Shown here: positions 6,332-32,921 of the stretch, one piece after another
How the letters are laid out: the number at the start of each line of letters is the position of its first letter
Position numbering within the stretch: position 1 is the stretch's first letter
Source: Candidatus Eisenbacteria bacterium
GTDB lineage: Bacteria; Eisenbacteria; RBG-16-71-46; CAIMUX01; VGJL01
Direction of reading: 5' to 3'
DNA length: 33,736 nucleotides
Assembly (NCBI GenBank): GCA_016867495.1
Contig: VGJL01000013.1
Coordinates: 1 to 33,736, forward strand
Program-made: the position numbers and the translations under genes
The notes under the pieces: model-generated
What the model was told of the DNA's origin: nothing
Databases searched by the model: none
What the model saw: only the letters and a program-made list of their open reading frames with translations

Positions 6332-7516
6332 TCAGAAGACATCCCCCGAGTGCAACGCCCTCAGGAATCCGGTCACTGGGAGAACGCGGACATTCTCGAA
6401 ATCGTAGGCCCTGGACCCCGTGTAGATGCCGAAGCAGCGATCGACCTTCAGTCCCGACTGCGCGGCAAGCTCGGTCATCGGCTTCTCCCACGATCGATCC
6501 CATTTGGGAGAGAGCTTGACCTCGATGGCCACGACCTGCGGCGCCCTGCCGGTCTGACGTTTGCGGGTCTCGACGATAAAGTCAATCTCCACGCCAGAGG
6601 CTGTGCGGTAGTACGAAATCTGGCGATGTTTGCCCGCGGTCTCGTTGAAGACACGGAGTTCATGGTAGATCATGGTCTCCAGCGCCGTGCCTCGCCACGA
6701 CCGATCCAGGGGATCACGATGCAGCCCCGCTGCCGCCCGAGCCACCCCCGGATCGAACCAGTAGAACTTGGGGTGAGCGGACTCCCGAACCTTGACCCCG
6801 GGTCTCCAGGCCGGGAGAAAGTGTCCGAGGAGTGTGTCCGTCAAGATAGCGAAGTACGTGTCAACGGTGCTGCGCGGCACAGCGGCTTCGCGGGCGATAT
6901 TGTGCCCGTTGACCGCCTGACCATTCATCTGTCCGGCGACCCCTAGAAACCGGAGGAACGGCGGCACGTTCCGGACGAGGCCTTCCTCTCTGATTTCCTC
7001 CTTGAGGTACGTGTTCACGTAGGCGGCCAGGATCTCCGGCGCCTGGGATCGATCCATCTGGACGGACGGCAGGAGGCCCCAATCGATCGAGAAACCCGGA
7101 TCGAATCTATCCCGCAACTCCGCCGCAGAGAACCCCTCCATGTTGAGAGTCAGCGCCCTCCCGGCGAGCAGGTTTGCGCCGCCTCGGCGCAGCTTCCGCG
7201 CCGGAGAGCCACAGAGAGCGAAACGCCAGCGACGGGACTCCATCAATCGATGGACCTCGTCGAGCAGAGCGGGCGCTTTCTGGATTTCGTCGAGGATGAT
7301 CCAGGAGTTCGCCGAACGGTTGCCGATGATCGCTTCCAGGCGATGGGGATCGCGGGCCAGCTCGAGATAGAGCGAGGCATCGAGCAGGTCGAGGCGAGGA
7401 GCCCCCGGGAAAGTCTGCCTGAGCCAGGTGCTCTTGCCCGTCCCCCGCGGGCCGAAGAGGAAGAACGACCTCGTGGGAGGAGCAAGAAGCCGGGGGATGT
7501 GCGCAGCGGGTCGCAT
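6332..7516 (-). CDS. AAA ATPase with DUF4143 C-terminal domain
   Basis: This 394-residue protein has an N-terminal AAA_14-type ATPase with Walker A GPRGTGKST (residues 22-30) and Walker B WIILDEIQK (72-80). The C-terminal DUF4143 region contains a PD-(D/E)XK-like arrangement (GVEIDFIVE about 308-316, VVAIEVKLS 328-336). Such proteins are widespread on accessory DNA and of unknown function; roles in defence or nucleic-acid handling have been suggested. I chose the ATG at 7516 because the family starts just before the P-loop. No ribosome site precedes it, and a promoter-like -10 box lies only 6 bases upstream, so the mRNA may be leaderless. The key motifs look intact. Confidence 0.88.
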   Translation of the reverse strand: MRPAAHIPRLLAPPTRSFFLFGPRGTGKSTWLRQTFPGAPRLDLLDASLYLELARDPHRLEAIIGNRSANSWIILDEIQKAPALLDEVHRLMESRRWRFALCGSPARKLRRGGANLLAGRALTLNMEGFSAAELRDRFDPGFSIDWGLLPSVQMDRSQAPEILAAYVNTYLKEEIREEGLVRNVPPFLRFLGVAGQMNGQAVNGHNIAREAAVPRSTVDTYFAILTDTLLGHFLPAWRPGVKVRESAHPKFYWFDPGVARAAAGLHRDPLDRSWRGTALETMIYHELRVFNETAGKHRQISYYRTASGVEIDFIVETRKRQTGRAPQVVAIEVKLSPKWDRSWEKPMTELAAQSGLKVDRCFGIYTGSRAYDFENVRVLPVTGFLRALHSGDVF

Positions 7517-7522
7517 GTCGAC

Positions 7523-7550
7523 AAGATACACTTCTGTTGGACAATTGCAA
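7523..7550 (-). promoter_or_regulatory. Candidate promoter of the DUF4143 ATPase gene (leaderless)
   Basis: Read on the minus strand, TTGCAA (7545-7550), a 16-bp spacer and TATCTT (7523-7528) lie directly before ATG 7516. Transcription would begin at or within a base or two of the start codon. The patch is clearly more AT-rich than its surroundings. Confidence 0.4.
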
Positions 7551-7668
7551 TGGATTTGTCCAGGTCGTGGGACAGTCGGGCAGCCGGCGGGGAGGACCCT
7601 GGACTCCACATCCTCGAGACTCCGCCCCGGAACGAGGCCGCTGCCGGGCCGCGTCAGGCGGGCGCGGC

Positions 7669-19355: not shown

Positions 19356-21317
19356 TCAACGAGCGCGGCGCGTGAATCGGGCGATCAGCTTGTGGCCGGG
19401 CAGGAAGAAGAGCAGGGCGTCCATCGCGGCCGCCGCGCGAAGGAAGGGATAGGCGAACGCGAGCGCGGCGAGTTGCTTCCTCATTCCCTCGATCTCCGAC
19501 CGCGTGATGATGGTTCCCTTTCCCGGGCGGACCGCGCGCGCGGCCCTGCGTTCGGCCGCCCAGTTGAGGGCCGTGTCGATCATCTCCGAGAAGAAACGGG
19601 AGTAGGTCCGCTCCGTGTCGCAGTCGAAATCGGCCGAGAAGAGCCGTCGCAGCTCCTCCCTGTTGTATCCCGGCCGGAGATGGCCGTGCCAGGCATCGGT
19701 GAGGCCGATCGCGTCGCGAATCCGGCGCGTCGCGGAGCGCGGGCGCAGATGAGGCACGTTGACGATCAGCTTCCCGCCCGGCTTGACGATCCGTCCCAGC
19801 TCGGCCGCGAAGCCGCGGTCATTGGCGATGTGCTCCAGGAAGTCGATGATGACGACCAGGTCGAACTCCCCCTCGGCGAAGGACGTCGGTCCTCCGTCGA
19901 GGCGATGGATCTCGCCCCCGACGAGATCGCGAATGGCATCGACGCTCTTCGCGTCGAGATCGGCGCTGCGCCAGTCGCCGCCCCGGCGACGCAACAGCAG
20001 GCTCACGACGCCGTTGTCTCCGCCGATGTCCAGGCAGAGAAGCCCTCGCGGGTCGGGAAGAAGTCGCATGATCTCGGCGACCTTGCGCTGCTTGATCACC
20101 GAGCGGCGGTAGAGCGCTAGGGCCCATTCAGGATTGGGGCGGAGCGCTTCCTTCAGCCGCTCCCGGAATCGATCGACTTTGGCGCGGTAGGCCTCCCGGC
20201 TGTAATGCTCGCGGGCGCGCCGGCGCGCCGCGTCGGCGATGGCCCGCGCCCGCGCGGGGTTCGCGAGCAGCTCCTCCAGCCCTCGCGCCATGGCCTCCGT
20301 GGTCGGCTCCACGAGGCAGGCGGTGCCGTCGTCGAGAACTTGCGTGTGGGTTGGCAGGCGCGTCGCGAGAATCGGCACTCCACTGTCCATGTAGGAGAAG
20401 ATCTTCATCGGCGTGTTGAGCCCGCGGGTCCTCGGCGAGACGAGGACCGCGGCCTGGCGGAGATATCCCCCCAGCGACGCTAGGGGTCTCGGGCCGAGGA
20501 AGTGCGCGCGATCGGCGAGCCCGAGGCGGGAGGCCTTGCGCGCGAGCGCCGCGATATCCGAGGAAGTCCCGCCGATCACGACCAGGCGGGCCTCGGGCGC
20601 GGACCGGCGGGCGATCGCGAAGGCCTCGACGAGCAGATCGACGCCCTGGTATCGCTCGAGATTGCCCGCGTAAAGGACGATGGGAGCGGCCGCGCGGGAC
20701 CGACCGGGCTGAAGCCCGATCACGAGCGACAGCTCCTCGTCAATCGCCTCGTCGCCTGTGAGGAGGCTGAAGTCCTCGATCCGTTCGACCATGACGCCCG
20801 GCGCGCAACGGCGCGCGATCTCCTCGAGCGCGCGGCAGACGGTAACAGTGGCCAGGCTGTCCCGGATGGCGGTCTTCTCCATCCGCTCGAGCAGTGGAAG
20901 GACGATGCCCAGGACCGGGTGTTTCTCGACCATCTGCTGGGAGAGGGAGGAGTCCATGTCGTAGACGTACGGGATGCCATGACGGCGCTTGATCTCTCGC
21001 GCCATGAAGACGGACTCCTCCACGGCGTGGACCAGATCGTAGCGCCCCTCGCGCGCGAGGCGCCCGCAGAGCGCGATCATCCGCAGATCGCAGGCGATCT
21101 TCTTCCACGAGAATCCCGGGCGCACGCCGCGCATCACCCTCGGCTGGCGGATGCGATGAATCCGCAGGGCCGGAAGCTCGACATCCTCCCCCTCGCCGTA
21201 TGTGACCAGGTCGACCGAGTCGCCGCGCTCGGCAAGCGCCTCGATATAGGCCCGCTCGGCGATAGGCGTGCCCCGGTTCTGGAAGAAAGGATGGGGGGCG
21301 AGGAAGAGGACTCTCAT
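19356..21317 (-). CDS. Glycosyltransferase family 4 fused to a class I methyltransferase
   Basis: This 653-residue protein has two enzymes in one chain. Residues 1-390 are a GT-B family 4 glycosyltransferase: MRVLFLAPHPFFQNRGTPIA at the start, YAGNLERYQGVDLL at about 216-229, and the sugar-nucleotide region GLNTPMKIFSYMDSGVPILA (299-318). Residues 410-580 are a SAM methyltransferase: motif I CLDIGGDNGVVSLL, then VIIDFLEHIAND, then GRIVKPGGKLIVNVPHLRPR. A hydrophobic C-terminal patch (about 616-640) may bind membrane. It likely adds and methylates a sugar in the same pathway. The start ATG 21317 overlaps the upstream gene's TGA (ATGA), so the two are translationally coupled. Confidence 0.9.
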   Translation of the reverse strand: MRVLFLAPHPFFQNRGTPIAERAYIEALAERGDSVDLVTYGEGEDVELPALRIHRIRQPRVMRGVRPGFSWKKIACDLRMIALCGRLAREGRYDLVHAVEESVFMAREIKRRHGIPYVYDMDSSLSQQMVEKHPVLGIVLPLLERMEKTAIRDSLATVTVCRALEEIARRCAPGVMVERIEDFSLLTGDEAIDEELSLVIGLQPGRSRAAAPIVLYAGNLERYQGVDLLVEAFAIARRSAPEARLVVIGGTSSDIAALARKASRLGLADRAHFLGPRPLASLGGYLRQAAVLVSPRTRGLNTPMKIFSYMDSGVPILATRLPTHTQVLDDGTACLVEPTTEAMARGLEELLANPARARAIADAARRRAREHYSREAYRAKVDRFRERLKEALRPNPEWALALYRRSVIKQRKVAEIMRLLPDPRGLLCLDIGGDNGVVSLLLRRRGGDWRSADLDAKSVDAIRDLVGGEIHRLDGGPTSFAEGEFDLVVIIDFLEHIANDRGFAAELGRIVKPGGKLIVNVPHLRPRSATRRIRDAIGLTDAWHGHLRPGYNREELRRLFSADFDCDTERTYSRFFSEMIDTALNWAAERRAARAVRPGKGTIITRSEIEGMRKQLAALAFAYPFLRAAAAMDALLFFLPGHKLIARFTRRAR

Positions 21318-22942
21318 GAGCGCACCGCCGTGGAGCCGGCGCAGGGGAGAGGAGCGTAGGATCGCAGGACGGCATCGATCTCCCCCCCGCGCTCGGCGTC
21401 CGTCCATCCCAGCTCGTCACCCATCAGGGTCGCGAGCTTCTCGAGGATCGCGCGGGGCGGGGGCCCGGCGCTTCCCAGACCGATCCGCCGGAAGACGAGA
21501 TCGCTCAGATGGACGGCCATCTCATCGCCGATCGCCCGGCGGACGGCTCCCTCCAGACTGGCGCCATCGCTGTCGATGGGCCACGAGGACTCGCCCATCT
21601 CCGGGTCCGGGGGAACTGGGAGGATCGCGGTGTCGGTCGCGCACGGTCCGCCGGCGTGCCCGAGCCTTTCGCACACGAGATCGATTGCCTCCGCGGCGGC
21701 GAGGCGCGCGGTCGTGTACTTGACGCCGACCAGCGCCGCGAGTCCCCTGATCCCCGCCGTCTTCTTGCAATCGATGATGGCGTGACGGTTGGCGAGACGT
21801 AATCGCGCATCGGCGTTCCGGATCGCCGCGCCTCGGGCCGGCTCGCTCAGATCGCCGCGGCTTCCCCTCGCGTCGTTCCCTCCGGTCACGGGAAGGAGGC
21901 CGCAGTGGAAGTGGAGGACATCGTCCATCCTGACCTTCTCCGCGCCGAGCGCCCGGTTGGCCGCGTCGATGAGCCTCCGGATGTCCTCGATCGTCGCCTC
22001 GCTCTCCGCGGGACGCTCCGGGCGCAGCCGATATGAAGTTCCGATCATCGTGGTCCCGCGCCAGGGGACGAAGAACAGAGTGAGACCTTCCCTGTCGAGG
22101 GGACCTCGAGCGTCCGGGCGCGCGGCGCGAAGACCGAAGGCCGCGCGATCGGAAAGAGGACGGACGATCAGATTCATCGCCACGGCGCTCCGGATCAATG
22201 GCGGCGCCGATCCCAGCAGCTCGGCCGACTCACGGCGCGAAAGCGCGCCGCTCGCGAGGAGGACGCACCGCGCTCCGATCTGGCGATCGCCGCCCAAGAC
22301 GAGATCCCGGGCGCGAACGCCGGCGATCGCCGCGCCGTCGGTCAGGATTCGCTCGGCACGCAAGTAGTTCGCAGCATCCGCGCCGCGCTCGGCCGCCGCC
22401 AGGATGGGTGCCAGGGTCAGTCGCTCGGTGTCGACCGCCAGCGCCTCGTGCCAGAGGGCCGCCCGCTTCGTCCCTCTCGCCGCGAGGGACGGGGCCAGAC
22501 TCTCGATCTGGTCTTGCTCCACGATCCGGCCGGGGGGGAGGGGTTCCAGCCCCCGCATGTCCCGCGCGGCGCGCGCGGCGATCGCGCCGTGAATCCGCAG
22601 GGCCAGCCCGAGCGCCGCGCGGCTTCTGGTCGGCGAGCCCTCGGCGGGCAGGAGGCAGGGGAGCGGGCGGACGCACCAGGGGGCGATCCGCCGATGGATC
22701 GCCTGCTCGCGGGCCGACTCGAGCACGCGCCGCAGGTCCGCCTGCTGCAGATAGCGGAGCCCTCCATGGATGATCTTGAGGCTGTTGGCGGAGGCTCCCG
22801 CTCCAAAGTCGCCCTGATCGATGATCGCGACCCGAAGGCCCCTGAGGGTCGCGTCCCACGCCGCGAAGGCGCCGTGAATGCCGGCGCCCACGACGAGGAG
22901 GTCGTACCCGCCCCGAGAGAGGCGCTCCGGATCGCGCTTCAT
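21314..22942 (-). CDS. GlpD-like FAD-dependent oxidoreductase
   Basis: This 542-residue protein is of the glycerol-3-phosphate dehydrogenase/oxidase family. It shows the dinucleotide-binding GAGIHG (residues 19-24), the family motif SLKIIHGGLRYL (54-65), GVKYTTARLAAAEAIDLV near the C-terminal part and a DAO_C-like end. GlpD oxidises sn-glycerol-3-phosphate to dihydroxyacetone phosphate at the membrane. Here it is coupled by a 4-bp ATGA overlap to the GT4-methyltransferase fusion and follows the carbamoyltransferase, not a glycerol operon. A role in making or recycling a glycan or lipid building block is therefore plausible but unproven. ATG 22942 is chosen because the FAD fold starts right after it; the frame is open upstream without similarity. 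Confidence 0.87.
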   Translation of the reverse strand: MKRDPERLSRGGYDLLVVGAGIHGAFAAWDATLRGLRVAIIDQGDFGAGASANSLKIIHGGLRYLQQADLRRVLESAREQAIHRRIAPWCVRPLPCLLPAEGSPTRSRAALGLALRIHGAIAARAARDMRGLEPLPPGRIVEQDQIESLAPSLAARGTKRAALWHEALAVDTERLTLAPILAAAERGADAANYLRAERILTDGAAIAGVRARDLVLGGDRQIGARCVLLASGALSRRESAELLGSAPPLIRSAVAMNLIVRPLSDRAAFGLRAARPDARGPLDREGLTLFFVPWRGTTMIGTSYRLRPERPAESEATIEDIRRLIDAANRALGAEKVRMDDVLHFHCGLLPVTGGNDARGSRGDLSEPARGAAIRNADARLRLANRHAIIDCKKTAGIRGLAALVGVKYTTARLAAAEAIDLVCERLGHAGGPCATDTAILPVPPDPEMGESSWPIDSDGASLEGAVRRAIGDEMAVHLSDLVFRRIGLGSAGPPPRAILEKLATLMGDELGWTDAERGGEIDAVLRSYAPLPCAGSTAVRS

Positions 22943-23057: not shown

Positions 23058-24881
23058 TCACCGGGACGTCGGAGAGTCGATCCGCCGTCCCCACTTGCTC
23101 TTCCCCTCCCACTTCTTGCGGGTCGCGTACGAGCCGACCGGGCCCGTGACGAGATGGTCGCCGATGGCGAGGTAGTCGAGACCGCTGTCGAGGAAGGCGC
23201 GGATCGCGTCGTCCGGCGTGCGGACGATCGGCTCTTCATGGATGTTGAACGAGGTGTTGATGATGACGGGGACGCCCGTCCGCTTGGCGTACTCCTCGAT
23301 GATCTTGTAGTAGGATGGATTCTCCTCGCGGCTCACGATCTGGGGACGGGCTGTTCCATCGACATGGACGACCCCCGCGCATCGCTCGGCCATCCATGGC
23401 TTGCAGTGGAACGTGATCGTCATGAACCGCGCCGCGTCCATCGCTCCCTCGGCCCTCTCATAGAGCCTGTCCGTGGCCTCGACGAGGGAGGCCGGAGCGA
23501 AGGGCATGAACTCGGTGCGGCGCAGCAGCTCGTTCAGCCAGTCGTTGACCGATGGATCGCCCGGCTGGTAGAGGATGCTCCGGTTCCCGAGGGCCCGAGG
23601 CCCGTACTCCATCCTGCCGTTGAAACGGGCGACCACTTTCCCAGTGGAGAGGTGCTCGGCCACGGTCTCCTCGATGCGGCCCGGAAGGTGTTTGGCCTCG
23701 AGACCCGTCCGGCGGATCGCCGCCTCGATCTCGGAGTCCCCGTACTCATGGCCGAAGTAGACGTCCCTCAGCCCGTTCGGGGCATAGGGTTCGCCTCCGG
23801 ACCGGCGCATCGCGGCGGAATAGGCGAGCCCCGCGCCCACCGCCAGCCCCTCGTCCGACATGCCGGGATGGATGAAGGTCGCCTCGACCCCGGGCAGATG
23901 ATGGATCTCCTCGTTGATCCGCACGTTTGCGAAGAGTCCTCCGGCGAGGGCGAGGTTGCGATGCCCGGTCTGGCGGACCCAGTGGCCGACGTAGGAGCGC
24001 GCCACGTCCTCGGCGACCGTCTGGATCGAGGCGGCCAGGTCCTCGATCTTCCATCCCTGGGGCAGGGCGCGGCGGATCTGTTCCATTGCCTGCTTGAAGA
24101 GGATCCTGCCCGTGTTGCGGGTATGGCCGTCGTCGGCGACGATCATCGATCCGAGGAGCTCCTTGTAGACGGGGCTGCCTCGCGGGGCGAGCCCCGTGAT
24201 CTTCCCTTCGTGCCGCTTGGCCTTGAAGCCGCAGATCGCCGTGATGTAGGCGTAGTAGTTTCCCAGGGAATCGTAGGAGTCGGCCGTGTTGAGGAGCTTG
24301 AGCTCGCCGTCACGCGCCCCGTAGATGTGCGAGGAGTGCCCGTCGCCTCCGCCGTCCATCGTGACGACCAGGGCCTCGCGGAAGGGGCTGGAGTAGTAGG
24401 CGGAGGTGGCGTGGGCGTAGTGGTGATGGAAGAAGCGGACCGGAGCGACGATGCCGTACTCCTTCTCGAGGATCTCGCGGATCCGCCTCCGCCGGTGGGC
24501 GTAGGCCGGGCTTCTGAGGGAGTAGTAGGCGCGCCTCAGGATCGGCACGCGCGGCGCGATGCCTCCGAATCGGGACGCGAACTGGAAGAACGCGCTGTGA
24601 AGATCCTCGTCCTGGTCGCGGGCCTCGAACCATCCGGGCCAGGGGAGGATCTCCTCGCGGATCTCCATGTTGACCTGCGCGACCGCCACGCCGGCGATCT
24701 CGGCGGGATCGGTCCCCGAGAGGGCGAGGACCTCCCGGATCGCCTGGCGCGGGAAGCCCCGAGCGAGCTTGATCCGGACGATCCGCTCCTCGTTGACCGC
24801 GGCGAGGATCCGGTTCCCCTCGATGATCGCCGCGCCGCTGGTCTGCCCGTCCGTGATTCCGAGGATTCTCGTTTTCGACAA
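23058..24881 (-). CDS. NodU/CmcH-type carbamoyltransferase
   Basis: This 607-residue protein has both halves of the family. The N-terminal ASKHA-like carbamoyladenylate domain has HHHYAHATSAYYSS (152-165) and VTMDGGGDG. The C-terminal Carbam_trans_C domain has GRMEYGPRALGNRSIL and VIINTSFNIHEEP. Such enzymes use carbamoyl phosphate and ATP to carbamoylate a hydroxyl, as on Nod factors, antibiotics or glycans. The start is TTG 24881, preceded by GGAG; the nearby ATG 24894 is out of frame. It heads a minus-strand set with the GlpD-like and GT4 genes (115-bp gap) and is divergent from the epimerase, consistent with O-carbamoylation of the cluster's sugar. Confidence 0.93.
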   Translation of the reverse strand: MSKTRILGITDGQTSGAAIIEGNRILAAVNEERIVRIKLARGFPRQAIREVLALSGTDPAEIAGVAVAQVNMEIREEILPWPGWFEARDQDEDLHSAFFQFASRFGGIAPRVPILRRAYYSLRSPAYAHRRRRIREILEKEYGIVAPVRFFHHHYAHATSAYYSSPFREALVVTMDGGGDGHSSHIYGARDGELKLLNTADSYDSLGNYYAYITAICGFKAKRHEGKITGLAPRGSPVYKELLGSMIVADDGHTRNTGRILFKQAMEQIRRALPQGWKIEDLAASIQTVAEDVARSYVGHWVRQTGHRNLALAGGLFANVRINEEIHHLPGVEATFIHPGMSDEGLAVGAGLAYSAAMRRSGGEPYAPNGLRDVYFGHEYGDSEIEAAIRRTGLEAKHLPGRIEETVAEHLSTGKVVARFNGRMEYGPRALGNRSILYQPGDPSVNDWLNELLRRTEFMPFAPASLVEATDRLYERAEGAMDAARFMTITFHCKPWMAERCAGVVHVDGTARPQIVSREENPSYYKIIEEYAKRTGVPVIINTSFNIHEEPIVRTPDDAIRAFLDSGLDYLAIGDHLVTGPVGSYATRKKWEGKSKWGRRIDSPTSR

Positions 24882-24979
24882 GGAGCCGCTCCATTCTCGC
24901 GCGCGACCGCCGGTTTGTCTCCTTTCGGCCGGACCGATCCTATCAGAAGCCGAGAGCCCCGAGGACGCGCAGATGCACT

Positions 24980-24985
24980 ATCATA
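24980..24985 (-). promoter_or_regulatory. Possible -10 box of the carbamoyltransferase operon
   Basis: TATGAT on the minus strand lies in a short AT-rich patch of the divergent spacer (24882-25096), with a weak TTCATT 17 bp further upstream. Support is slight. Confidence 0.25.
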
Positions 24986-25096
24986 CGGGTTATCGGCAAT
25001 GGAATGAACGAAGTAGCTGGAAATCCCGGACGATAGTTGAGGCGAGGGCTGGGCGGCCCGGATCGAATCGAGAGTCCCAGCGGGGATGGAGGCAGC

Positions 25097-26080
25097 GTGA
25101 AGATCCTCGTGACCGGCGGAACGGGTTTCACCGGCTCGGCCCTCGTCGAGCGGCTCCTGCGCGACGGGCATCGGGTCGTCGCCCTCGACTGCCGCGAAGG
25201 GCTCGCGCCCCAGCGCCTCCGGGATCTCGGCGCCGATGTCCGGATCGGCTCGGTGACCGATCGGGCCGTCGTCGACTCCTGCATGGCCGGAGCGGACGTC
25301 GTGCACCATCTCGCGGCGGCCTTTCGCGAGCTGAACGTCCCGGAGTCCCACTACGATGAAGTCAACGTGGGCGGAACCCGGACCGTCCTCGAGAGCGCCG
25401 CCGCGCACGGGGCGCGAAGGTTCATCTACTGCAGCACCTGCGGCGTGCACGGAGACATCAAGAAGCCGCCCGCGGGGGAGGACGCGCCGATCACCCCGGC
25501 GGACTACTACCAGCGGACGAAGCACGAGGGGGAGCTCGTGGTTCAGTCCGGAGCGCCCGGAGGCATGGCGACCGTGATTCTCCGCCCGGCGGCGATCTAC
25601 GGTCCCGGGGATCCGGAGCGCTTCTACATGATCTTCAAGCGGGTCTCCAAGGGATGGTTTCCCATGTTCGGAAGCGGGAAGACTCTCTACCACCCGCTCT
25701 ACATCGACAATCTCATCGACGTCCTCGCCCGCTGCACGGAAGCGGGAGTGGGTGACGGAGGGACCTACCTGATCGCCGACGAGAGGTACTACTCGATCGA
25801 GGAGATCGTCCGGAAAGTCGGCGAGGCGCTGGGCGCGCGGGTCGAGATCCGCCACTATCCTCTCACTCCCCTGATCGTCGCGGGGCACATCGTAGAGAAC
25901 GTATGCCGGCCCTTCCGGATCGCGCCGCCCATCTTCCCGCGGCGTGTCGACTGGTACCGGCAGAACCGCGCCTTCGACATCAGCCGGGCCAAGGGCGATC
26001 TGGGCTACCGCCCGGCGATCGATCTCGACGAGGGGCTCCGCCGAACGGCCGCCTGGTACCGGGAGCGCGGTCTCCTGTAA
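25097..26080 (+). CDS. NAD-dependent epimerase/dehydratase (extended SDR)
   Basis: This 327-residue short-chain dehydrogenase has VTGGTGFTGSALVERLL (GxxGxxG at 7-13), an acidic residue after beta-2 for NAD preference (ALDCREG), HHLAAAF, and the catalytic Ser/Thr in YCSTCGVHGD. The catalytic pair is Tyr138 and Lys142 in YYQRTK. The family includes sugar-nucleotide epimerases, dehydratases and 3-beta-HSD relatives, so the exact reaction is not clear; context favours a nucleotide-sugar. GTG 25097 is preceded by GGAGG at 25088-25092. It is the first gene of a plus-strand set, 22 bp before the amidotransferase gene. Confidence 0.88.
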   Translation: MKILVTGGTGFTGSALVERLLRDGHRVVALDCREGLAPQRLRDLGADVRIGSVTDRAVVDSCMAGADVVHHLAAAFRELNVPESHYDEVNVGGTRTVLESAAAHGARRFIYCSTCGVHGDIKKPPAGEDAPITPADYYQRTKHEGELVVQSGAPGGMATVILRPAAIYGPGDPERFYMIFKRVSKGWFPMFGSGKTLYHPLYIDNLIDVLARCTEAGVGDGGTYLIADERYYSIEEIVRKVGEALGARVEIRHYPLTPLIVAGHIVENVCRPFRIAPPIFPRRVDWYRQNRAFDISRAKGDLGYRPAIDLDEGLRRTAAWYRERGLL

Positions 26081-26102
26081 CGGAGACCTGGGGGGCGATC
26101 TC

Positions 26103-28031
26103 ATGTGCGGAATCGCCGGGGTGATCGCGAGCGATCCATCGCGTCTCGCCCGGATCGACGAGATGGTCGCCGCCCTCGCCCATCGCGGACCCGACGATGT
26201 CGGCATCGAGCGTCTCGATGGCGCGGCGCTCGGCCATCGGCGGCTTAGCATCATCGATCTCGTGACCGGACACCAACCCATGTTCAGCGTCGATCGCGCC
26301 GCGGCCATCGTGTTCAACGGCGAGATCTACAACTTTCGCCGCCTCCGTGCGGAGCTGGAAGCGGAGGGACGCGTCTTCCGGACGGAGTCCGACACGGAGG
26401 TTGTCCTTAACCTCTATGATCGCGACGGCGACGACTGCGTGCTGCGATTGGACGGGATGTTCGCCTTCGCTCTGCTCGATCTTCGGCGCGGGCGACTGCT
26501 CCTCGCGCGGGATCACATGGGCCAGAAGCCGCTCTTCTTTCTCGCGGCGCCGGGCCTCTTCGCCTTCGCTTCCGAGGTCAAGGGGCTGCTGGCGGGGGAC
26601 TTCCTGCGGCGCGGGATCGACATGGAGGCGCTCTACCACTACGTCTCCCTCCGGTTCATTCCAGACCAGAGGACGCTCTTTCGATCGATCCGGAAGCTCC
26701 CCGCCGCCCACAGACTGATCTACGAGAACGGAGAGGCGCGCGTCGAGCGCTACTGGGGATTCTCGTTCATCGACAAGGAGCGGGAGAGCGACGATGCGCT
26801 GCTCGATCGCCTGGACGGATCGCTTCGCGAGACGGTGAGGGGGCACCTGGTCAGCGACGTCCCGGTCGGCTGCTTCCTGAGCGGGGGGATCGACTCGAGC
26901 CTGATCACCGCGATGGCCGCATCGGAGTCGGCGGGGAAGCTGGCGACATTCTCGATCGGAGTTCGTGAGGAGAAGTTCGACGAGCTTCCTTACGCGCGCC
27001 GGGTCGCGGCGAGCTGTGGGACCGACCATCACGAGGAGATCGCCTCGGCCGATCTGATCCGTTTGGTTCCGGAGATGGTCTGGCACATGGATGAGCCCTC
27101 GGACCCCTTCGGCGTCGGCGTCTATCTCGCGTCCCGACTGGCCGCGCGACACGTGAAGGTCGTGCTGAGCGGCGACGGCGGCGACGAGCTTTTCGCGGGA
27201 TACGATCGATTCGCGGGCCAGGGGCTTGCCGACCGGCTTCGCATCATTCCCCCCCCGATCCGGCGCACGGTCCTGCGAGGGCTGATCGACCGGATGCCCG
27301 AGAGTTTCGCCTACAAGAGCGCCACGCAGAAGCTGAGATGGATCAACGAGATGTCTCTTCTGCGGGAAGGAGAGAGATACGCGGAGAGCATGAGCTTCCT
27401 GCGCTTCACCGAGACGGCGAAGAAGGATCTCTTCACGGAGACGATCCGCCGCGGTCTCGACGAAATCGACTCGCGCGTCAAGATCCTCGAGCCGTTCGAG
27501 TCGAAGATGGCCCATGACCCGATCGATCGGATGCTCTACACCGACCTTGTCACCCGCGTGCCGGATCATCTGCTCGTCATCGTCGACCGGATGGCGATGG
27601 CCCACGGCCTCGAGGTGCGGCCTCCGTTCCTCGAACATCGGATGGTCGAGCTGGCGGCCCGCGTCCCGTCCTCCCTGAAACTCAGGGGACGGACCCTCAA
27701 GTACGCGCTGCGCATGCTCGCCCGGCGATATGTCGACCCGGCGATCGCGAACCGACCGAAGCGGGGATTCGGTTTCCCGATCGCCTTCTGGATGCGCGAT
27801 GAGTTGCGCGGCTTCCTCCTCCATGTGGCCGAGAGAGCGAGGTTCGTCGAGGCGGGGATTCTCGAGAGGGAGACGGTGCATAGGCTCGTCCGCGAGCATG
27901 TCGATGGGAAACGGGACCACAACTTCAGACTCTGGATCCTCCTCAACCTGGAGGTCTGGCATCGCCTCTACATGGATGGGGAGTCGATCGCGGAGGTGAC
28001 CGAGTGGATCGAGAGGGAATCGGCGGCGTAG
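26103..28031 (+). CDS. asnB: Glutamine-hydrolysing asparagine-synthase-type amidotransferase
   Basis: This 642-residue enzyme has an N-terminal class II glutaminase domain with the nucleophile Cys2 (MCGIAGV), HRGPDD at 27-32 and NGEIYNF at 72-78. A C-terminal synthetase domain follows, with the ATP PP-loop SGGIDSS (260-266) and GDGGDELFAGYDRF. Length fits AsnB. Homologues in surface-polysaccharide loci amidate uronic acids or other carboxyls rather than aspartate. Its position between an epimerase and methyltransferase, opposite a carbamoyltransferase, points to that use here. A GGGGGG site stands 7 nt before ATG 26103. Its 3' end overlaps the methyltransferase start by 28 bp. Confidence 0.92.
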   Translation: MCGIAGVIASDPSRLARIDEMVAALAHRGPDDVGIERLDGAALGHRRLSIIDLVTGHQPMFSVDRAAAIVFNGEIYNFRRLRAELEAEGRVFRTESDTEVVLNLYDRDGDDCVLRLDGMFAFALLDLRRGRLLLARDHMGQKPLFFLAAPGLFAFASEVKGLLAGDFLRRGIDMEALYHYVSLRFIPDQRTLFRSIRKLPAAHRLIYENGEARVERYWGFSFIDKERESDDALLDRLDGSLRETVRGHLVSDVPVGCFLSGGIDSSLITAMAASESAGKLATFSIGVREEKFDELPYARRVAASCGTDHHEEIASADLIRLVPEMVWHMDEPSDPFGVGVYLASRLAARHVKVVLSGDGGDELFAGYDRFAGQGLADRLRIIPPPIRRTVLRGLIDRMPESFAYKSATQKLRWINEMSLLREGERYAESMSFLRFTETAKKDLFTETIRRGLDEIDSRVKILEPFESKMAHDPIDRMLYTDLVTRVPDHLLVIVDRMAMAHGLEVRPPFLEHRMVELAARVPSSLKLRGRTLKYALRMLARRYVDPAIANRPKRGFGFPIAFWMRDELRGFLLHVAERARFVEAGILERETVHRLVREHVDGKRDHNFRLWILLNLEVWHRLYMDGESIAEVTEWIERESAA

Positions 28032-28765
28032 GCGACGCGCGGGCGGCGGAGCGCGCGGATGTCGAGACGGCCTCGGAGGAGTATGCCGGGCGATTCGCGG
28101 GGCCGGTCGGCGAATGGTTCGTCAGTCTGCAGTCGCGGATCACGCTCCGCCTGATGGCGGGACTGCCGGCGGGGGCGCGCGTCCTAGACGTCGGGGGAGG
28201 CCACGCCCAGATCGCTCCCGCGCTCGCCGCGGCAGGCTACAGGACGACGGTCGCGGGAAGCGCCCCCGCGGCGGCCGCGCGCCTCGGCGACCTCATCGCC
28301 GCGGGCTCCCTCACCTTCGACACGGTTTGTTTCTCCAGGCTGCCTTACGCCGATCGGTCTTTCGACGCGGCGGTCTGCTTCCGGCTCCTTCCCCACTTCG
28401 CCGAGTGGAAGGAGTTGATCGCGGAACTCTGCCGCGTGACGCGCGTTCGCGTGGTCGTCGACTACCCGTCGATCCGCAGCGTGAACTTCGCTTCCGCGCG
28501 GCTCTTCGGACTGAAGAAGCGCGTGGAGGGGAACACGCGGCCTTTCGGCCTCTTCCACCCCTCCGAGATCGAAGCCGCGTTTCGCTCAAGAGGGTTCAGG
28601 CTGAGCGCGTCGGTTGCGCAGTACTTCTTTCCGATGGCTCTGCATCGGGCGCACGGGTCTCTCCTGGTGGCGCGCGGGATCGAGGCGCCGGCCCGATGGA
28701 TCGGGCTCACGCAGCGGCTCGGATCGCCTGTGATCGCGAGGGCCGATCGCCTCGAGCCAGGCTAG
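28004..28765 (+). CDS. Class I SAM-dependent methyltransferase
   Basis: This 253-residue methyltransferase has motif I VLDVGGGHAQIAPAL and the later FDAAVCFRLLPHFAEWKELI, followed by VRVVVDYPSIRSVN. GTG 28004 overlaps the asparagine-synthase gene by 28 bp; the first 20 residues are low-complexity, so a later start is possible. Translational coupling suggests it acts on the same product, for example O- or N-methylating a sugar. Its TAG stop (28763-28765) interlocks with the stop of the opposite-strand glycosyltransferase in the palindrome CTAG. Confidence 0.82.
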   Translation: MDREGIGGVGDARAAERADVETASEEYAGRFAGPVGEWFVSLQSRITLRLMAGLPAGARVLDVGGGHAQIAPALAAAGYRTTVAGSAPAAAARLGDLIAAGSLTFDTVCFSRLPYADRSFDAAVCFRLLPHFAEWKELIAELCRVTRVRVVVDYPSIRSVNFASARLFGLKKRVEGNTRPFGLFHPSEIEAAFRSRGFRLSASVAQYFFPMALHRAHGSLLVARGIEAPARWIGLTQRLGSPVIARADRLEPG

Positions 28766-29772
28766 CCGAGACGCCGCGCCCTCCCGCCCCGGATCAGGAG
28801 CGCGAGGCCGTTGCCCCCCATCGCGTCCGCGAGGGTGACCAGGATCCGCCGGCGGTGTGGCTGGTCGGACAGCGCGAGATGCCGGATCCTCTCGGCCAAG
28901 AGGCCCTGGAAGAAGATCGCGAGGAACGACTGCGCCAGGAGAACAACGGAGCCGATCGGCACGAGGATCCCGGCGAGAGTGGGCGCGGCGATGGTGCGCA
29001 GGACCCAGACGCAGGCGGGGATGGAGAGGAGAAGCGGGACCGAAGCGAAGGCGAGGAACCAGACGAGGGGGCGGTCGCTGAAGCGCGTGATCATGGTGAG
29101 CGTCGCAAGATCGGCCAGCACCCCAGGCACGCGCGTGAGACCGTACTTAGACCGGCCGAAGAGCCGGCCGCGATGATGCGTCTCGACCTCGGCGACCCTC
29201 CCGCCCCCGATCTGGGTCAGGGGCACGGCGAATCGGTGGAAGTCCGAGTAGAGGGTGCTCTGGCGGAGCAACTCTCCGCGGTAGGCCTTGAGACCGCATC
29301 CGAGGTCGTGGATCTTCGCCTTTGTCATGCATCGAACGAGCGCGTTGGCGACGACGGAAGGGACCCTCCGAGAGATGAGCTTGTCCTGCCGCGATCGGCG
29401 CCACCCGCTCACGATCTCATACCCCTCGTTCAGCCTCGCCAGGAGCTTCGGGATGTCGGCGGGGTCGTTCTGAAGATCGCCGTCCATCGTGACGATGATG
29501 CCGCCGCTGCTCCGATCGATCCCCGCTCTCAGAGCCGCCGTCTGCCCGAAGTTCCGGCTCAGACGAATGCCAAGAACGTGATCCGACGCTCTCGCGATTC
29601 GGGAGATCTCGCGCCAGGTCCCGTCCCTCGAGCCATCGTCGACGAAGATGATCTCGTGCCGCGCGCCGGCGCCCGCGAGCGCGGCGTCAATCTCCGCCGC
29701 GAGACGTGCGATCGAGTCCTCCTCGTCATAGACGGGAATCACCACCGAAATCGCTGGCGCCCCGCGGCTCAC
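28762..29772 (-). CDS. Membrane glycosyltransferase family 2 (DPM1/ArnC type)
   Basis: This 336-residue GT-A enzyme has ISVVIPVYDEE (residues 8-18), FVDDGSRDGT (43-52), the metal-binding MDGDLQNDP (96-104), and two C-terminal membrane segments (about 230-300). The family transfers a sugar from a nucleotide donor to a polyprenyl phosphate, giving a lipid-linked sugar donor. All catalytic motifs are present. The GTG start overlaps the TGA of the upstream paralogue (GTGA, 29769-29772), so the two are co-translated. The likely product feeds the GT39-type enzyme nearby. Confidence 0.92.
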   Translation of the reverse strand: MSRGAPAISVVIPVYDEEDSIARLAAEIDAALAGAGARHEIIFVDDGSRDGTWREISRIARASDHVLGIRLSRNFGQTAALRAGIDRSSGGIIVTMDGDLQNDPADIPKLLARLNEGYEIVSGWRRSRQDKLISRRVPSVVANALVRCMTKAKIHDLGCGLKAYRGELLRQSTLYSDFHRFAVPLTQIGGGRVAEVETHHRGRLFGRSKYGLTRVPGVLADLATLTMITRFSDRPLVWFLAFASVPLLLSIPACVWVLRTIAAPTLAGILVPIGSVVLLAQSFLAIFFQGLLAERIRHLALSDQPHRRRILVTLADAMGGNGLALLIRGGRARRLG

Positions 29773-30827
29773 TCCTTCCTCTCTCCTTCGTCCGTCCGCC
29801 CGGCGCGCTCCGCGACCCGATAGATCGCGTGGTCGCGGAAGTGGAGGTAGAGGAGGAGTTCCCCGAGAAGCCCGAGGACGATGATCTGGATCCCCGCTGT
29901 GACCAGGAGGAGCGCGAGGAGGAGCATCGGGCGGCCCGCGAGAGGCACGCTCAGGAACAGCCGCTGGTAGGTCAGGACCAGACCGAGGACGCCACCGGCC
30001 AGGAAGAGAAGGCCGCCGACCAGGCCGATCGGGCGGAGCGGCTTCTGCGTGAAGCGGACGAGGAAGCCGATCGTCAGCAGGCTCAAGAAGCGGTTGACGA
30101 AGACCCTGGGGCCGAAGATCCGCAATCTGGGCTCCGCCGGGTGCTGCCGCAAGGCGACCTCCCTGATCTCGAATCCCTCCCGATGGGCCATGATCGGGAG
30201 GAAGACCTGGGTGTCGCCATAGTCCGGGACCGCATCGAGGACCTCGCGGCGGAAGCCGTGGACGCTGCACGCGATGTCACGGAAACGCAGACCGGCCGCG
30301 AGCCCCATCCCCAGATTGAACAGTCTGCCCGAGAGGCGGTTCGTGAGCGAATCGCGGCGGCGCTCGCGGTAGCCGATCACGTAATCTGCGCCGCCCTTCA
30401 GGGCTTCGATCACTCGCGGGATCGAGTCGCAGGCGATCTGGGGGTAGGCGGGGAATGTGACGATCATAGGGCTGGAGCAGACGGCCGCGCCGGCCCGTAT
30501 CGTCGCGAGCTGGCCCCCATGCGAGTGGAGGATGAGCAGCTTGACGTCCGGAAGGCCCGCGATGCGGCCGCGGATCCGTTCGTACACCGGCCGCCGTTCA
30601 TGGTCGAGCGAGATGACGAGCTCCACGCGGCGCTGCTCGGCCTGGATCCACTTCAGGAGCTCCTCGAGCACCTCGAGAGCGTGTTCCGAGCGCTGGGAAG
30701 AGAAGAGGACGATCGACGCCTCGACGTCCGCGCGGCTGCCTGGACCGCTCGATGCGTTCACTTGCTGCACGATCCGACTTCCTCCGAGAACAGTCTCGAC
30801 CGCTGTGGCGGGTTCTCGCCCCGACAT
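29769..30827 (-). CDS. GT2-like protein lacking the catalytic acidic motif
   Basis: This 352-residue protein has the same layout as its downstream partner: a GT-A domain, then two membrane segments (about 258-325). It aligns with the partner through HGGQLATIRAGAA, RRRDSLTNRLSGRLFN, FRDIACSVHGFRREVLD and RIFGPRVF. But MDGDLQ of the partner is FPAYPQ here (residues 125-130), FVDDGSRDGT is replaced by VISLDHERRP, and the start of the domain lacks the VIPVYDE segment. I infer an inactive or altered-function paralogue that could scaffold or regulate the active enzyme. ATG 30827 fits. Its gene precedes the active copy with a 4-bp overlap. Confidence 0.85.
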   Translation of the reverse strand: MSGREPATAVETVLGGSRIVQQVNASSGPGSRADVEASIVLFSSQRSEHALEVLEELLKWIQAEQRRVELVISLDHERRPVYERIRGRIAGLPDVKLLILHSHGGQLATIRAGAAVCSSPMIVTFPAYPQIACDSIPRVIEALKGGADYVIGYRERRRDSLTNRLSGRLFNLGMGLAAGLRFRDIACSVHGFRREVLDAVPDYGDTQVFLPIMAHREGFEIREVALRQHPAEPRLRIFGPRVFVNRFLSLLTIGFLVRFTQKPLRPIGLVGGLLFLAGGVLGLVLTYQRLFLSVPLAGRPMLLLALLLVTAGIQIIVLGLLGELLLYLHFRDHAIYRVAERAGRTDEGERKE

Positions 30828-31133: not shown

Positions 31134-32921
31134 ATGCAAGTTACGGCGGACAGGCCGAAATCCCCGGTTTCTCGCTCTCAACCTACGAGCGGAGGGGGCT
31201 ACCTGTCATCGTCCGCGGGACTCCTCCTGATCCTCGCCGCCGCCGCCGCGCTGCGTCTCTGGGGGATCAATCACGGACTGCCCTTCGTCTACCTCACGGA
31301 TGAGATCATGGAGGTCAAGCGCGCCCTGCAGCTCGGAGCCGGCCACTTCGACTACGACCGGGCGTTCAAGGGGGGGCTCTTCTATCTGCTGTTCGTGGGG
31401 TATGGAGCCCTATTCGCGGTCTGGAGGCTCGCCGGCGAGATCCGATCGACCGGAGACTACCTCTTTCGTTTTGCCGCTGATCCGACCCCCTTCTGGATGA
31501 TAGGCCGAGTCACAGTCGCGCTGATCGCGATTGTGAACATCTTCCTCGTCTACAGGCTGGGGAAGAAGCTCGGAGACAGGCGGGTCGGGATCCTCTCCGC
31601 CCTCTTCCTCTGTTTCGCCCTCGATCACCACACCGAGTCGCAGTCCATCACGGTCGATGTGCTGATGGTCACCCTCTTGACGGCGACCTTTCTCTATCTC
31701 GTCGAGATCGAGAGGATGGGAAGGCGGCGGGACTACCTGCTGACTTCCCTCTTCGCCGCGCTCGCGGTCATGACGAAGCTGCCGGCGATCGTCGTGCTCC
31801 TGCCGATCCTCCTTGCGCACGTCCGGCGGACGAGGGGGGAAGGGCTTGGCGCGGCCGCGGCGCTGACAGATCGCAGGTTCCTCTTCGCGATCTGTCTCTT
31901 CCTGGGAGTGACGGCCATCGGGAACCCCGGCTTCTTCGAGGCCTTCGTCCGCGCGGTCGAAGTCCGTTTGGGGCTGCTATCGGAGCCGACGCTGACCCAG
32001 TCGGCCGAGCCGTTCCGACTTCGCACGACGAATGTCTGGGTATACTACGTCCGTGCGATGGGCGCCTCGATGAGCCCGCTCATCTTCGCCGCCGCGCTGC
32101 CGGGGCTGGTTGTCGGACTCTGGAGGCGCGACCGCGCGGCGATCTCGATCGCTCTCTTCTGCTTTGTCTTCTATCTATTCATCTGCGTGCCGCAGAGGGA
32201 AGACCACGTCTATCCGAGATACACTCTCCCCGTCCAGATGCTGCTCTCGGTCGTGGCCGCGCGGTTCCTCGTGTCGATCGGGCGGGGGCTTCCTCACGGC
32301 CGTCTCGGGACGGGCGTCCGGGCGCTCGCGCCGCTCCTTCTCATCGTCCCCGGCGCGCTCCAGATCGTCCGCTACGACATGACGCTGACCCGAACCGACA
32401 CAAGGACGCTGGCGAAGAGATGGATCGAGGAGAACATCCCGGCGGGCTCCAGGATCCTGGTCAAGGGATCAGGCTACCGGCCCTCCCCGGACACAGTGGC
32501 CTTGTGGAACACCGCGGAAAACGTGGAGGCCCATCTGAACCGCCTCAAGGGCGACGACCCTCGCTGGAGGGAGACCTCCCGGTACTCCAGAAGGAAGGAC
32601 AGCTTCCATATCGCGCACCTCTCGGTCGCAAGGATGCGCGAGGGATACGACCTGGCCTTCTTTGGCTCGGACGCCTTTCCATATCGGAGTCTGGACGAAT
32701 ACCTCGACATGGGGGTCGAGTACATCGTCATCGATCGCGTGGAGGCCCAGGGATTCCTCAACGAGGAGGGTTCCGGGCGGTTCCCCGAGGTCATGCGGTT
32801 CTACGAGCGCGTCGGCCGGGATCCGCGTTTGGAGCTGATTCGCGAGTTCACCCCTCGGGGGAATCCGGGGCCGGCCTTGGAGCTGTACCGGGTTCGAGAG
32901 GGGCCGGATGTCGGCGGTTGA
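31134..32921 (+). CDS. GT39-type membrane glycosyltransferase (ArnT/PMT-like)
   Basis: This 595-residue protein has about ten membrane segments. The first luminal loop carries the acidic pair Asp56-Glu57 (YLTDEIMEV) that serves as catalytic base in ArnT, PMT and related GT-C enzymes. A soluble C-terminal domain of about 190 residues follows (from RTDTRTLAKRWIEENIPAGS). GT39-type enzymes take a sugar from a polyprenyl-phosphate donor and attach it to a lipid, glycan or protein outside the membrane. It lies next to a DPM1/ArnC-type gene that would make such a donor, so the two form a plausible pair. No clear ribosome site precedes ATG 31134. Confidence 0.85.
   Translation: MQVTADRPKSPVSRSQPTSGGGYLSSSAGLLLILAAAAALRLWGINHGLPFVYLTDEIMEVKRALQLGAGHFDYDRAFKGGLFYLLFVGYGALFAVWRLAGEIRSTGDYLFRFAADPTPFWMIGRVTVALIAIVNIFLVYRLGKKLGDRRVGILSALFLCFALDHHTESQSITVDVLMVTLLTATFLYLVEIERMGRRRDYLLTSLFAALAVMTKLPAIVVLLPILLAHVRRTRGEGLGAAAALTDRRFLFAICLFLGVTAIGNPGFFEAFVRAVEVRLGLLSEPTLTQSAEPFRLRTTNVWVYYVRAMGASMSPLIFAAALPGLVVGLWRRDRAAISIALFCFVFYLFICVPQREDHVYPRYTLPVQMLLSVVAARFLVSIGRGLPHGRLGTGVRALAPLLLIVPGALQIVRYDMTLTRTDTRTLAKRWIEENIPAGSRILVKGSGYRPSPDTVALWNTAENVEAHLNRLKGDDPRWRETSRYSRRKDSFHIAHLSVARMREGYDLAFFGSDAFPYRSLDEYLDMGVEYIVIDRVEAQGFLNEEGSGRFPEVMRFYERVGRDPRLELIREFTPRGNPGPALELYRVREGPDVGG

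Follow-up and report, generated by a model that had tools for sequence, protein, structure and literature searches.

An open question about polyisoprenyl-phosphate glycosyltransferases (PI-GTs) is how a water-soluble sugar donor meets a lipid carrier that is bound to the membrane. The question is difficult to approach because one chain normally does both jobs, so that mutations confound them. GtrB, one of the closest described relatives of the proteins reported here, is a tetramer with a bundle of membrane helices and an active site that lies 15 Å from the membrane; its residues R122 and R200 hold the acceptor phosphate, and it loses activity when key residues of the donor or acceptor site are mutated (PMC4728340). 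Here, we studied a bacterial locus in which an intact enzyme of this kind is encoded together with a homolog whose donor-site motifs are altered. The locus lies in a 33,736-nucleotide stretch (the window) that covers positions 1 to 33,736 of contig VGJL01000013.1, from assembly GCA_016867495.1 of a Candidatus Eisenbacteria bacterium.

Results

A gene pair with one intact and one altered member

The two genes, B upstream and A downstream, are encoded on the minus strand of the window. The relevant features are as follows:

29769–30827, minus strand: gene B, a degenerate ArnC/GtrB-type GT2 of 352 aa with an ATG start, identified by ArnC homology
28762–29772, minus strand: gene A, an intact ArnC/GtrB-type GT2 of 336 aa with a GTG start, identified by ArnC homology and motifs
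29769–29772, minus strand: GTGA overlap of the B stop and the A start (translational coupling), read from the sequence
30438–30455, minus strand: FPAYPQ of B, at the place of DxD in the alignment with A
30594–30614, minus strand: ISLDHER of B, at the place of the VDDGS nucleotide motif in the alignment with A
29470–29487, minus strand: MDGDLQ (DxD) of A, intact, read from the sequence; DxD is invariant in all A
29629–29643, minus strand: VDDGS of A, intact, read from the sequence
29817–30062, minus strand: second juxtamembrane helix, two-helix membrane hairpin, and cytosolic tail of B, its most conserved part
28765–28851, minus strand: C-terminal tail of A (LIRGG...RRLG), predicted as beta strands in a low-confidence model
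31134–32921, plus strand: divergent neighbor, a GT-C (PMT_2) membrane glycosyltransferase of the kind that uses polyprenyl-phosphate sugars

The initial annotation, made from this sequence, had described two homologous proteins of like membrane topology, the altered copy first and joined to the other by a GTGA overlap, with FPAYPQ in place of MDGDLQ and no VDDGS-type motif in the upstream copy. The coordinates and the junction proved exact, and both replacements stand at the aligned places listed above. Homology is borne out by a BLASTP match of 28% identity over 205 aa (E = 2e-12), and hydropathy places a two-helix hairpin at the C terminus of each protein.

Against the ArnC profile, A scores E = 1.8e-45 and B scores E = 4.6e-23; both also match solved chains in the PDB of ArnC (5.9e-44 and 5.3e-22, respectively) and GtrB (4.5e-25 and 4.9e-5). 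By sequence homology, then, A and B are PI-GTs of family GT2. In A, the homology extends over the GT domain and the membrane hairpin, and VDDGS, DxD, and the equivalents of GtrB R122 and R200 are invariant in 34 of 34 sequences. B shares the homology and the architecture but has no DxD in any of 106 genes, and it keeps only half of the Arg pair that holds the acceptor phosphate, with an equivalent of R122 in 35 of 35 sequences and of R200 in none of the 35. Because DxD is absent, we class B as a PI-GT homolog and not as an active member. Its score against Pfam PF00535 (16.6 bits) falls under the 23.3 cut-off, so that a routine scan of its own genome misses it, and work that expresses an active GT2 by itself would overlook partners of this kind. 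Single-chain AlphaFold models, built from five to six sequences, are poor (pLDDT 62 and 64) and give no basis for judging an interface; the first fold matches of the B model are ArnC and GtrB, which at this confidence serves as support only.

The pair in four phyla

Among 47 Eisenbacteria genomes, six contain a high-scoring B, and the same six contain a high-scoring A, always adjacent. All six B orthologs read [FYL]P[AS][YF]PQ at the DxD place. Genome G001, which belongs to the same family as the window genome, corresponds to contig WJJW01000206.1 of Candidatus Eisenbacteria bacterium isolate Bin_251. A seventh genome (G004) carries a divergent pair in which A precedes B, with an ATGA overlap, located between homologs of the window's carbamoyltransferase and GT-C genes, the GT-C homolog directly downstream. 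A single contig scan with the Eisenbacteria B profile returned only five loci, all of the Eisenbacteria type; it requires exact peptide patterns, a demand too strict for the other phyla, and these came to light through profile searches. These searches recovered the same kind of pair in three more phyla, represented here by genomes G378 (pair in 20 of 249 sampled genomes), G145 (seven of seven), and G367 and G091 (strong B in 72 of 82). In plasmid records, tblastn with B found distant GT2 genes only, none of them covering 80% of the query.

The residues that replace DxD differ among these phyla. The phylum of G378 resembles Eisenbacteria with xPAYx[QR], the phylum of G145 shows xP[AG]xxP, and most B proteins from the phylum of G367 show xRVR. 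B proteins from the latter two keep a VDDG- or LDDGT-like motif, and thus loss of DxD is constant across B and loss of the nucleotide motif is not; where VDDGS is kept, in the phylum of G367, B may still bind nucleotide.

Since B might have been defined by its missing motifs, we rebuilt both profiles without the two motif regions. The masked profiles identified 106 distinct B genes, with a margin of at least 122 bits over the active profile. DxD occurs in none of these and in all 161 of the other homologs that could be assessed. Two further masked calls that do have DxD, at margins of 8 and 16 bits, are ordinary active GT2 genes and were set aside. In a maximum-likelihood tree of 87 proteins, computed by a quick search without bootstrap, B forms one clade and A another, and the split holds after removal of the motif columns (SH-aLRT 99 and 98). 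A recent duplication can be rejected, as the two deep clades are older than the split of the four phyla. On the sequences, the simplest reading would be a single loss of DxD in the ancestor of B.

Obligate linkage

B is obligately linked to A: 102 of the 106 B genes adjoin an intact A on the same strand, and the other four lie at contig ends. A first count had given 100 of 106, and further sequence resolved two apparent orphans, with A directly upstream of B in G707 and 1.4 kb upstream in G696. The G696 locus (L245, 5347–8830) is the only pair found with an intervening open reading frame (7009–7626). Two more apparent orphans are explained by a contig end (G645) and by a contig end with a truncated B (G641). 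Had most homologs of B stood by themselves, or regained the acidic motif, this would have spoken against the proposal of the initial annotation, which had also asked whether loss of the motif is conserved in pairs elsewhere; neither is seen, and the loss is conserved throughout.

A 4-nt ATGA, GTGA, or TTGA start–stop overlap joins 33 of about 100 pairs. A precedes B at every locus other than those of six Eisenbacteria, the window among them; the C-terminal tail of A, found in the A alignment in Eisenbacteria members only, coincides with this reversed order. Counted by genome, the two genes occur both or neither in Eisenbacteria (7 and 40 genomes) and in the phylum of G378 (20 and 229), where A scores at least 384 bits in exactly those 20. 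In the phylum of G367, 67 of 82 genomes have both and eight have neither, and the seven discordant genomes are explained by contig ends or by truncated copies, with a truncated B visible in one. Per genome, A and B thus co-occur essentially one to one in the three phyla that were compared in both directions. The sole borderline case is G512, with an A-like gene and no B, which at 380 bits falls just below the lowest paired A in the phylum of G378 (384) and which we count as a related solo enzyme. At one locus (L004, in G039), A is broken by one in-frame stop beside an intact B; the genome is metagenome-assembled, and the stop may be an assembly error.

Co-evolution and complementary conservation

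Pairwise distances among A and among B proteins are strongly correlated (mirror-tree r = 0.92, 34 pairs), and none of 2000 shuffles of partners within phyla reached this value (mean 0.81, maximum 0.89). The two chains are constrained in different parts. Mean pairwise identity, taken over one set of genomes for both chains, is 0.71 for A against 0.33 for B round DxD, 0.48 against 0.27 in the N-terminal half of the GT domain, and 0.26 against 0.51 in the membrane hairpin. In these alignments, A conserves its GT domain while its hairpin drifts, and B does the reverse. Related solo enzymes, whose divergence is not matched to that of the pairs, conserve both regions, with 0.65 round DxD and 0.45 in the hairpin.

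Besides the R122 equivalent, B keeps the equivalent of R125 in 30 of 35 sequences and the Asp equivalent to D156 of A in all 35; both DxD aspartates are absent from all 35, and the HH..R..G.SKYG loop is lost as well. Some juxtamembrane residues on which GtrB depends are missing from B, which has N where GtrB has K132 and no counterpart of R200; this weighs against a lipid-side role for B.

Gene neighborhood

In the window, the pair has the GT-C (PMT_2) gene on one side. On the other lies a block (23058–28765) with genes for a methyltransferase, an AsnB-like amidotransferase, an epimerase, and a carbamoyltransferase, which several relatives share wholly or partly; it shares 50–75% identity with that in L056, is partly present in L057 and L061, and seems likely to be a locus for a carbamoylated, amidated, and methylated glycan. 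Farther along, at 19356–21323, a GT4 glycosyltransferase and a methyltransferase domain are fused in one frame. Neighbors in other phyla include GT4 and GT2 transferases, epimerases, polysaccharide export proteins, O-antigen ligase, and FemAB, and flippase-like PF03706 genes recur by the pair in several genomes. In most loci of one series from the phylum of G367 (L157–L186), B is followed by a third GT2 with the motif NTDADNQY or NTDGDNQY. Surface-polysaccharide genes adjoin the pair in all four phyla; the neighborhood supports a role in surface glycan synthesis and does not specify the sugar.

Discussion

The reading that we favor, at a probability of roughly two in three, is that A and B are obligate subunits of one PI-GT, with B as the membrane- and lipid-side subunit. 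The complex would most likely be a mixed tetramer, built like the homotetramers of GtrB and ArnC. A would bind the nucleotide sugar and metal and transfer the sugar to polyprenyl-phosphate. B, with its donor site apparently lost (DxD, the acceptor-loop Arg, and, in this lineage, VDDGS), would anchor the complex at the membrane, and its retained juxtamembrane basic residues and conserved hairpin may help to present the lipid carrier to A. Loss of motifs that is conserved while the gene stays under constraint, together with obligate linkage to and co-evolution with an active homolog, makes B a candidate pseudoenzyme subunit. The initial annotation had suggested a heterodimeric synthase with a regulatory or scaffolding pseudoenzyme. 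The pairing and the conserved loss stand; the role of the altered chain is probably better placed on the membrane and lipid side than in mere regulation, because its hairpin is the part that has been kept.

Obligate linkage would also be predicted if B acted on the product of A. B could work at a downstream step of the same pathway, outside any enzyme complex with A, perhaps as the receptor of the lipid-linked sugar, its gate, or a flippase partner; a shared pathway is sufficient to produce both linkage and co-evolution, and the concentration of B's conservation in the membrane hairpin and juxtamembrane region, as well as the recurrence of PF03706 genes, would fit. We nonetheless consider this unlikely, given that B has only two membrane helices and has kept a full GT-A fold, that its relatives oligomerize via exactly these parts, and that the hairpin of A has drifted as if freed of constraint. 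Slightly less credit goes to the idea that B is itself an active glycosyltransferase, one that needs no metal and whose donor site has been rebuilt (PAY or RVR), responsible for the step before or after A. PfDPMS retains residual activity after the single replacement D89A or D91A (PMC5526996), and thus loss of DxD is not by itself proof that B is dead. Further, the replacement is conserved within lineages and is not random (PAY in two phyla, RVR in a third), and the Asp equivalent to D156 is kept in all 35 sequences. However, both DxD aspartates, the acceptor-loop Arg, and the HH..R..G.SKYG loop have gone together, the N-terminal half of the GT domain is the least conserved region of B, which is the opposite of catalytic constraint, and the presence of three different replacements in a single clade is better explained by relaxed constraint than by one new active site.

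Regulation and chaperoning are a well-known role of dead paralogs, and B might mainly control A allosterically or stabilize it during folding, with no handling of lipid; the VDDG-type motif in the phylum of G367 could then be a nucleotide sensor. This is improbable to a greater degree, as it gives by itself no account of why the hairpin, the segment that A conserves least, should be the one that B conserves most. Finally, the lost catalytic motifs might be taken to mean that B is a decaying duplicate without function. That is already contradicted by a single clade that is intact across four phyla, with 28 invariant positions in a 17-sequence alignment, and is always found beside A.

If the preferred reading of A and B as subunits of one enzyme holds, evolution appears to have divided the two jobs of a PI-GT between two chains, and each job becomes separately mutable. 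We would give about even odds to the wider claim that the pair represents a class of bacterial polyprenyl-phosphate sugar synthase not described before, in which one active and one dead GT2 chain form an obligate hetero-oligomer. In that view, lipid-carrier and membrane functions would have passed to the dead chain, and the class would have originated a single time, earlier than the divergence of at least four phyla, and persisted in most of the species sampled from two of them. The parts are known, namely the PI-GT fold, dead partner subunits, and the divided DPM1-DPM2-DPM3 enzyme; in the open-access literature that was searched, we found no description of a PI-GT that joins an active GT2 chain to a dead one, and subscription journals may differ.

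The comparison that the initial annotation drew with pseudo-glycosyltransferases is a poor one. That term mostly denotes VldE and ValL, active catalysts of C-N (and C-O) coupling (PMC3441724, PMC12041759), and the likeness to B is in name only. A better analog is the CHSY3-CHPF heterodimer, in which an active glycosyltransferase is joined by a partner that lacks DxD and most donor-binding residues and has a stabilizing role (PMC12748766); this is, however, a eukaryotic GT31/GT7 polymerase and not a polyprenyl-phosphate glycosyltransferase, and the pairing arose separately. In human DPM1-DPM2-DPM3, a type II dolichol-phosphate mannose synthase, catalysis and anchoring are split between chains, as proposed here (PMC5526996). 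DPM2 and DPM3 are small membrane proteins that lack a GT domain, and DPM1 lacks a membrane helix, whereas A and B each combine a GT-A domain with a two-helix hairpin, which sets the pair outside the type II synthases. The homotetramers of GtrB (Synechocystis sll0501) and ArnC resemble the pair in fold, in domain order, and in the C-terminal hairpin, and A has their full catalytic set. Yet GtrB and ArnC are homo-oligomers of one active chain, and the pair consists of two ancient paralogous clades that are encoded together, one of them without a donor site.
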